Source of the DNA: Centipeda felix
Lineage (GTDB): Bacteria > Bacillota > Negativicutes > Selenomonadales > Selenomonadaceae
Assembly (NCBI RefSeq): GCF_900186465.1
Contig: NZ_LT891959.1
Coordinates: forward strand, 704,921 to 768,920
DNA: 64,000 nucleotides
Direction: 5' to 3'
Every line of letters begins with the position of its first letter. Position 1 is the first letter of the stretch. Position numbers and translations under genes: made by a program. Below are positions 3,185-56,847 of the stretch, one piece after another. Below the pieces are notes generated by a model. That model was not told where the DNA came from and made no database searches. It saw nothing but the letters and a program-made list of their open reading frames with translations.

Positions 3185-3344
3185 GGAATCACTGATAAAT
3201 TCAGCACCATCATCTTGACGCATCTTTTTTGCCCGTACTTCGGCGGAAAATCCTCCACAGAGCACCACTCTGCGTCCGGTTTTCCACCTTGTTCGGACGA
3301 AAAATCTACGCCAATCTGACGGGCTTCATTTTATCAGTGATTCC
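3185..3344. repeat. Family B MITE-like element, full copy
   Basis: 160 bp with perfect 15-bp terminal inverted repeats, GGAATCACTGATAAA at the left and TTTATCAGTGATTCC at the right. It is flanked by a 4-bp direct repeat CTAA (3181-3184 and 3345-3348), a target duplication that includes the TAA stop of the upstream permease. A small central hairpin (CAGAG/CTCTG) is visible. There is no coding capacity. Related copies are at 21134, 43736 and 56716, a degenerate one at 3444, short forms at 22316 and 45323. Confidence 0.92.
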
Positions 3345-10874: not shown

Positions 10875-10906
10875 TCTCTCTTCCCCCTGTATCATTGTCA
10901 TGCGAT

Positions 10907-11060
10907 ACTCCTAAGCAAACCCTAGTGAAGCAAACGGGGGAAGTACACGTTCTGCCCCCTGCGGATTTCTTTCGTTCAAGCGAAGCACGTTTAAGAAGTC
11001 CGCAGGTATTTAGGCAGATAAGTGTACGACCGTTTGCGTAACGAGGTGTTTGCGAGGAGT
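10907..11060 (+). repeat. Family A palindromic repeat, copy 2
   Basis: 154 bp from ACTCC to GGAGT, nearly identical in layout to copy 1 (shared blocks CTAAGCAAACCCTAGTG, CCCCTGCGGATTTCTTTCG, AAGAAGTCCGCAGGTATTTA). It lies between galT and the LacI-type gene, inside the operon, so the operon mRNA should carry a large stable hairpin here. Confidence 0.9.
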
Positions 11061-11070
11061 ACGCAGACAT

Positions 11071-21133: not shown

Positions 21134-21295
21134 GGAAGCACTGATAAATTCAGCACCGTCATCTTAGCGCATCTTTTTTGCCCGCTCAATGCCTGCAAAT
21201 CCTCCACATAGCTTTGGCTATGCGTCCGGTTTGCCTCCTCAATCGGACGAAAAAATCTACGCCAATCTGACGGACTTCATTTTATCAGCGATTCC
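21134..21295. repeat. Family B MITE-like element, full copy
   Basis: 162 bp with ends GGAAGCACTGATAAA and TTTTATCAGCGATTCC, flanked by the direct 4-bp duplication TAAA (21130-21133 and 21296-21299). The central hairpin is CATAGC/GCTATG. It lies between the deoD leader and the 3' end of htpX. Confidence 0.92.
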
Positions 21296-22315: not shown

Positions 22316-22371
22316 GGAATCGCTGATAAAGGATATGTCAACGCGCTCGTGCTGAATTTATCCGTGCTTCC
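22316..22371. repeat. Family B short derivative (56 bp)
   Basis: GGAATCGCTGATAAA at the left and TTTATCCGTGCTTCC at the right, with only ~26 bp between. It matches the 57-bp element at 45323. It ends one base before the serA stop codon. No clean target duplication is seen here. Confidence 0.75.
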
Positions 22372-43735: not shown

Positions 43736-43896
43736 GGAAGCACTGATAAATTCAGTCCTGTCATCTTAGCGCATCTTTTTCGCCCTCTCTTCGTCGACAA
43801 ATCCTCCACATAGCTTCAGCTATGCGTCCGGTTTGTCTCCTTGATAGGACAAAAAATCTACACCAATCTGACAGACCTCATTTTATCAGCGATTCC
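43736..43896. repeat. Family B MITE-like element, full copy
   Basis: 161 bp with ends GGAAGCACTGATAAA and TTTTATCAGCGATTCC, flanked by the direct duplication TTAC (43732-43735 and 43897-43900). The central hairpin is CATAGC/GCTATG. It inserted between codY and the tRNA promoter without touching the -35 box. Confidence 0.92.
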
Positions 43897-45310: not shown

Positions 45311-45399
45311 CCGTCTGTTTAAGAAATCGCTGATAAATGAGATGTGCCCAATTAGCATGCTAAATTTATCCGTGTTTTCTTAATTCGGGCGGTTTTTTT
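45311..45399 (+). terminator. rpmB terminator interrupted by a family B element
   Basis: Outer stem CCGTCTG (45311-45317) with CGGGCGG (45386-45392), seven pairs including two G-U, followed by seven T. The loop carries a 57-bp repeat element and its duplicated TTAA. Removing the element and one TTAA restores a compact hairpin with loop TTTAATT. Confidence 0.8.
45323..45379. repeat. Family B short derivative (57 bp) with TTAA duplication
   Basis: Ends GAAATCGCTGATAAAT and ATTTATCCGTGTTTTC, flanked by direct TTAA (45319-45322 and 45380-45383). Same layout as the 56-bp element at 22316. It sits in the loop of the rpmB terminator. Confidence 0.88.
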
Positions 45400-45441: not shown

Positions 45442-45990
45442 ATGGGAACAAATGTCACAGAGATCCGTGCAGCAAATGAGCGCTACGTCGCCACATTCGG
45501 CGACAAAGGAGGGCTATCACACGATCCAACGCGGCGGTTTGCCGTCGTCACGTGCATGGACTGCCGTCTCGACCCGGCAAAATTTGCGGGGATCGCGGAG
45601 GGCGATGCGCACGTGATCCGCAACGCGGGTGGACGCGTATCGGACGATGTGATCCGCTCGCTGCTGATTTCCTACAAGATGCTCGGCACGAACGAGTGGT
45701 TCGTAATCCAACACACGCACTGCGGGATGCAGGGCCTCACCAACGAGGCGGTATGCGCGCGCTTTGAGGAGGATGCTGCCGCGCACGGCGGCGATGCCGT
45801 CGAGGCACACTACATTGACTTTATGCCGATTGCAGGAGAGCTCGAGGAGAATCTCGCCCGCGATGTGCGCCGTCTGCGCACGCATCCGCTCGTCCCCGCA
45901 TCCATCGTGATCCACGGCTACATCTACGATGTGCACACGGGACGCCTGATCGTCACGGAGGAAGCGGAGAAGATCGGCGCGGCAAAATAA
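45442..45990 (+). CDS. Beta-class carbonic anhydrase
   Basis: 182 residues; interconverts carbon dioxide and bicarbonate. Zinc ligands: Cys and Asp in VVTCMDCRLDP, and His with Cys in HTHCGM. VIRNAGGRVSDDVIRSLLIS is the conserved core of the Rv1284-like clade, which is shorter than plant-type enzymes. It is a separate unit, ended by a clear terminator. Confidence 0.94.
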   Translation: MGTNVTEIRAANERYVATFGDKGGLSHDPTRRFAVVTCMDCRLDPAKFAGIAEGDAHVIRNAGGRVSDDVIRSLLISYKMLGTNEWFVIQHTHCGMQGLTNEAVCARFEEDAAAHGGDAVEAHYIDFMPIAGELEENLARDVRRLRTHPLVPASIVIHGYIYDVHTGRLIVTEEAEKIGAAK

Positions 45991-52596: not shown

Positions 52597-52654
52597 ACAT
52601 AAATCGTCCCAAGAAGTCACAGATATTGCATATCCATGTTCCTATCATAAGACG

Positions 52655-52790
52655 CGCCTTTTCTCATCCAGACTGCGAAAGCATCTGCCTTCTTCACTGT
52701 CGGCTCCGGAATTACACCGAATCATGCCGCTCTCACAAGCAGCTTGCGGGCTGTACCGCCGGTGGGGATTCTCACCCCGCCTCAAAGAGC
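52655..52790 (-). ncRNA. FMN riboswitch (RFN element)
   Basis: On the minus strand the conserved blocks appear in order: GGCGGGGTGAGAATCCCC, ACCGGCGGTACAGCCCGCAAGC, split as ACCGGCGGT and AGCCCGC, GATTCGGTGTAATTCCGGAG, CCGACAGT and AGTCTGGATGAGAAAAGG. It binds FMN and stops transcription of the rib operon. Confidence 0.97.
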
Positions 52791-52804
52791 ATCATTCATA
52801 TGCT

Positions 52805-56653: not shown

Positions 56654-56715
56654 TTGATTCTTTACGACAAAAAAGATTACGGCGATAGGCACGCATGATA
56701 TAATAATTCCCCAAT

Positions 56716-56847
56716 TAACGCATCTTTTTTGCCCGCACTTTGTCGGCAAATTCTCCACATCGCTTTGGCTATGCGTCTGGGTTCCCTCCTTGTTCGGACG
56801 AAAAAATCTACGCCAATCTGACGGGCTTTATTTTATCAGCGATTTCC
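56716..56847. repeat. Family B element, left-truncated
   Basis: Begins at TTAACGCATCTTTTTTGCCC and runs to TTTTATCAGCGATTTCC; the first ~30 bp of the full element are gone. The central hairpin CATCGC/GCTATG has lost one pair. Confidence 0.82.

Follow-up and report, generated by a model that had tools for sequence, protein, structure and literature searches.

The terminator behind rpmB in Centipeda felix raises the question of how a 57-bp repeat came to lie within the loop of a hairpin, and whether the stem of that hairpin survives with the repeat in place. The locus was analyzed within a window of 64,000 nucleotides, the whole stretch of DNA under study. The stem formed by CCGTCTG and CGGGCGG, the seven T that follow, and the TTAA-flanked element that the stem encloses agreed in letters and coordinates with the original prediction (Table 1), and removal of the element with one TTAA leaves a loop of TTTAATT, as claimed there. 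The two arms are 68 nt apart with the element and 7 nt apart without it, and a terminator scan missed the site because its loop limit is 8. The hairpin had no match in Rfam at gathering thresholds. A stretch of 98 nt was predicted to fold into a single long hairpin (-33.3 kcal/mol, z -6.05), and none of 200 shuffled sequences was equally stable.

Table 1. Coordinates of the features at the rpmB terminator, as positions in the window.
Feature	Position	Strand	Basis
rpmB, ribosomal protein L28, 63 aa	45098..45289	+	ORF; PF00830 Ribosomal_L28, 88.2 bits (cutoff 27)
5' arm of the rpmB intrinsic terminator, CCGTCTG	45311..45317	+	Sequence
Left TTAA of the target duplication	45319..45322	+	Sequence; identical 4-bp flanks across the family
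Short-form MITE, 57 bp, non-autonomous IS5-type, within the terminator loop	45323..45379	+	Ends common to the family and an IS5-family insertion sequence
Right TTAA of the target duplication	45380..45383	+	Sequence
3' arm of the terminator, CGGGCGG	45386..45392	+	Sequence
T7 tract of the terminator	45393..45399	+	Sequence
Pro_CA (carbonic-anhydrase family) gene, downstream of rpmB on the same strand	45442..45990	+	PF00484, 52.5 bits (cutoff 25.7)

RpmB orthologues were found in all 14 genus genomes searched (90-98% identity in the other 13), and a terminator was present at the rpmB position in each, with the GC-rich stem and adjoining T tract that mark an intrinsic terminator. Twelve of these were compact hairpins with the 5' arm CCGTCCG and predicted folds of -16.8 to -21.5 kcal/mol, whereas the C. 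felix genome (G000) and one relative (G003) contained the element, shared the 5' arm CCGTCTG, and folded at -33.5 and -43.1 kcal/mol, respectively. The 3' arm was CGGGCGG in 13 genomes and CGGACGG in G006, and the T tract comprised six T in the 13 other genomes vs. seven in C. felix. Relatives without the element thus possess the stem, and the presence of an uninterrupted hairpin there in 12 of the 14 genomes strongly supports the prediction that the element entered the loop of an existing terminator. The exact loop TTTAATT was found in none of the relatives, and the 12 compact loops differ in sequence. A wider survey retrieved the DNA downstream of rpmB for 24 among 80 loci, of which three belonged to congeners already counted and 21 to other genera; the latter had different sequences behind rpmB and were therefore of no help in reconstructing the empty site.

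In C. felix and G003 the elements share insertion point and orientation, and each lies between two TTAA copies. G003 is the nearest relative of C. felix by RpmB (98% identity; others at most 95%) and also at another locus (92% DNA identity; others at most 83%). The two copies at rpmB terminate in ATTTATCCGTGTTTTC. Its six outermost letters, GTTTTC (GAAAAC read inwards), were absent from every other end among the 198 in 99 family elements, a sign of one shared insertion. A single insertion predating the split of the two species is the simplest reading of these sequences.

The family to which the element belongs was defined by the end pattern GGAAGCACTGATAAA with at most one mismatch, so that hits count ends rather than elements. 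There were 163 hits in C. felix and from 0 (G009) to 197 (G005) in the other genus genomes, and the reversed pattern, used as a control, gave no hits in any of the 14 genomes. The ends of the rpmB copy itself differ from GGAAGCACTGATAAA by more than one mismatch and join the family when up to three are allowed, in line with the claim that the element is a member of a dispersed repeat family. A sample of 99 distinct elements, mostly from C. felix (50) and G002, was assembled from 121 sources, 22 of which had no recognizable end pair. Typical elements are about 161 bp long: 85 measured 140-162 bp, one measured 102 bp, and 13 were under 75 bp. Identical flanks of exactly 4 bp were observed in 55 of the 99 copies, vs. 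8.3 expected by shuffled pairing, and identical flanks of 1-3 or 5-9 bp in at most five copies for each length; the remaining 44 copies were without identical 4-bp flanks. The target preference of IS5 is YTAR, and among the 55 duplications 25 fitted YTAR and 12 were TTAA. With a length of 57 bp, no coding capacity, and many related copies, the rpmB element has the properties of a MITE, and the survey reveals in Selenomonas an IS5-type MITE family of high copy number. Other copies in the window were located at 3185-3344, 21134-21295, and 43736-43896 (long form) and at 22316-22371 (short form), and one with a degenerate left end at about 56674-56847. In G002, a long copy (L216 401-562) was at the 3' end of an apparent coding region, where the left flank TTTGA, judged by eye, may supply the stop codon.

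These findings bear on the alternative that no insertion occurred and that in two species the terminator is natively extended into a tall hairpin. The continuity of the predicted hairpin would agree with such an extension, but the chance of it is close to nil in view of the dispersed repeat family, the 4-bp duplication, and the compact hairpins of the 12 other genomes.

The presumed source of the family is an IS5-family insertion sequence. A search for like ends, confined to 27 loci with a PF01609 match, detected them on both sides at six loci, 1235-1247 bp apart. Four of these copies, from four congeners, were intact (L108, L109, L111, and L113; 1244-1247 bp with a 332-aa frame) and two were broken (L112 and L114), and none was found in C. 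felix or G003. The 332-aa product was assigned to NF033581 transpos_IS5_4 (309 bits, cutoff 140) and to PF01609 (97 bits), and among the ten plasmid matches listed for it, at 47-51% identity, nine were annotated as IS5. The 15-base ends of the insertion sequence and the terminal inverted repeats of the MITE match within three substitutions. Mobilization of the MITE by an IS5-family transposase would be consistent with this likeness of ends. On the other hand, identical 4-bp flanks were present in only one of the six insertion sequence copies, which counts against a simple picture. Matches to the transposase, some of them fragments, occurred in eight of the 14 genomes searched and were absent from G000, G002, G003, G004, G006, and G009; the family in C. 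felix therefore has no visible source. This absence is no bar to classification as a MITE, as a source may have disappeared from the genome and the C. felix assembly consists of 17 contigs. G002 had 95 end-pattern hits and no transposase, whereas G001 had the transposase and only eight hits, so the link between the insertion sequence and the MITE rests on the ends and the length of the duplication, not on co-occurrence.

It is very likely that a non-autonomous IS5-type MITE entered the loop at TTAA in the common ancestor of C. felix and G003, duplicating the TTAA, either in a short form of about 56 bp or in a form of about 161 bp that was trimmed afterwards. The original prediction of an insertion is upheld, but its further claim of a single event is not demonstrated, because a 161-bp insertion may have lost its interior to give the short form. 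Insertion of the common long form, followed by deletion in place down to 57 bp before the two species split, is possible at somewhat less than an even chance. The predominance of the long form in the sample would favor this route, as would the resemblance of short stretches near GCCATCT and GCCAATCT at either end of the long form, between which recombination could occur, and a junction that differs among short copies when compared by eye. Against this, of the ten short copies in C. felix, three were looked up in G003 and no long form was found there: the places corresponding to L026 and L018 had no element, though they were not clean empty sites, and at L022 the downstream side alone aligned. 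Identical 4-bp flanks around five of the 13 short copies are compatible with either route.

In RNA folding, the mean probability of the terminator stem was 0.996 with the element and 0.997 without it; within the rpmB mRNA the values were 0.997 and 0.998, respectively. This comparison of the two predicted folds agrees with the claim that the terminator was turned into a taller hairpin. The attribution of its survival to the inverted repeat of the element held only in part. Among inserts shuffled to match the dinucleotide make-up of the element and folded at equilibrium, 443 of 500 (84 of 100 in the rpmB mRNA) kept the stem at a probability of at least 0.9, with a mean of 0.93, and 26 of 500 (9 of 100 in the mRNA) dropped it below 0.5. 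Since most shuffled inserts keep the stem, palindromy is not strictly required; in these models it raises the certainty of stem survival (0.996 vs. the mean of 0.93) and is not the sole reason for it. Cotranscriptional folding could favor the palindrome more than equilibrium folds do. Because both halves of the stop signal are intact, and because the TTAA duplication is a palindrome and the element an imperfect one, an element landing in the loop would make the hairpin grow taller, with the stem of the terminator, both copies of TTAA, and the arms of the element stacking as one. The GC-rich stem base and the T tract would be left untouched, so termination is most likely still at the same T tract. 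By prediction, then, the insertion is structurally tolerated, and we infer that it brings no benefit. The locus may be regarded as a natural experiment, in which orthologous terminators can be compared between genomes that lack a palindromic insert and two species that share it, with survival of the predicted stem.

The same folds bear on the idea that the insertion weakens the terminator, and that read-through into the Pro_CA gene couples this gene to rpmB. The widened distance between the arms would be in keeping with it, as would the minority of shuffled inserts that disrupt the stem and the change of the 5' arm from CCGTCCG in 12 genomes to CCGTCTG in the two carriers, which converts a C-G pair into U-G. 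However, the actual insert keeps the stem at a probability about as high as that of the empty site, and read-through of this kind is considered unlikely.

Divergence between C. felix and G003 was uneven along the hairpin. The seven-pair terminator stem was unchanged, as was the 3' arm of the element (0 of 16 sites), whereas the 5' arm of the element had changed at 2 of 16 sites with one gap, and the apex at 8 of 25. The element had 10 substitutions in 57 sites vs. 4 in 95 for the immediate intergenic flanks (Fisher p 0.009); corresponding numbers were 54 of 450 for the region upstream of rpmB, 54 of 549 for the Pro_CA gene, and 7 of 192 for rpmB. Given these rates, the conserved stem offers weak support for a function. 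A conserved base with a freely varying apex would fit a working terminator, although the numbers are small. No pattern of compensatory changes was apparent between the two hairpin sequences; the apex simply diverges.

A preference of the family for hairpins or terminators, of which rpmB would be one instance, was considered in view of IS1272. Three of the 99 copies, vs. 0.69 expected, had a strong stem spanning the element (score of at least 16), but one of these, rpmB, was known beforehand, another (L179) had no T tract, and the flanks of the third (L180) resemble older element ends by eye. Mean flank complementarity was 6.13, vs. 6.32 (sd 0.26) for shuffled pairing (n = 99); as it does not exceed the shuffled value, no general hairpin targeting was seen, and targeting of this kind is highly unlikely. 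The L179 copy (250-410, in C. felix) was also considered as a second terminator-loop insertion and was rejected: a strong stem surrounds the 161-bp copy, but it lacks a T tract and is immediately upstream of a further ORF. Unlike the rpmB copy, it is nearly identical in C. felix and G003 (L246). Four other copies (L203, L217, L231, and L241), of which L231 is of the short form, were observed by eye to follow directly on the T tracts of hairpins resembling terminators.

IS1272/TnSha1 of staphylococci and the rpmB MITE are both mobile elements in a terminator hairpin, but IS1272 is described as cutting blunt, with the stem-loop partly replaced or deleted and no target duplication (PMC4923244, PMC5678879). 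The rpmB site, in contrast, keeps both arms and duplicates TTAA, which does not fit stem-loop replacement of the IS1272 type there, and its family showed no general hairpin preference. BrickBuilt of Porphyromonas gingivalis is described as a MITE with ends like those of the IS5 family, and shares with the rpmB element its dispersed, non-coding nature and its IS5-family-like terminal inverted repeats (PMC4596501). According to that description, BrickBuilt is intergenic, and predicted rho-independent terminators and/or polyadenylation sites surround 10 of 19 copies; at BrickBuilt_5 the terminator is upstream and undisrupted, and the stem loops span hundreds of nucleotides, whereas the rpmB element is 57 bp long and inside the terminator loop (PMC4596501). 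Target duplications are given as variable in length for BrickBuilt, vs. 4 bp in the rpmB family (PMC4596501). The SPRITE repeat of Streptococcus pneumoniae is likewise tied to a terminator-like structure, but is described as resembling a rho-independent terminator itself, whereas at rpmB the repeat supplies no more than the loop of a native terminator (PMC10969869). Among the matches listed in a search of open-access titles and abstract openings, none concerned a MITE within a terminator loop or MITEs of Selenomonas.

That a short IS5-type MITE did insert into the terminator loop, before the two species split, is well supported. The insertion combines known kinds, probably by chance, and is best regarded as an ordinary accident, with no new mechanism demonstrated. 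A broader proposal would be that short palindromic MITEs with a palindromic duplication (TTAA or CTAG) are structurally neutral at the center of a hairpin, so that a terminator loop could receive them safely, and bacterial terminators could lengthen through nested insertion into long 3' hairpins that take on roles such as mRNA protection; it is distinctly improbable. Apart from the family, the window contained a different two-copy repeat (290-455 and 10899-11063; 89-90% identity) and an FMN riboswitch on the minus strand at 52652-52792 (RF00050, 78.3 bits).
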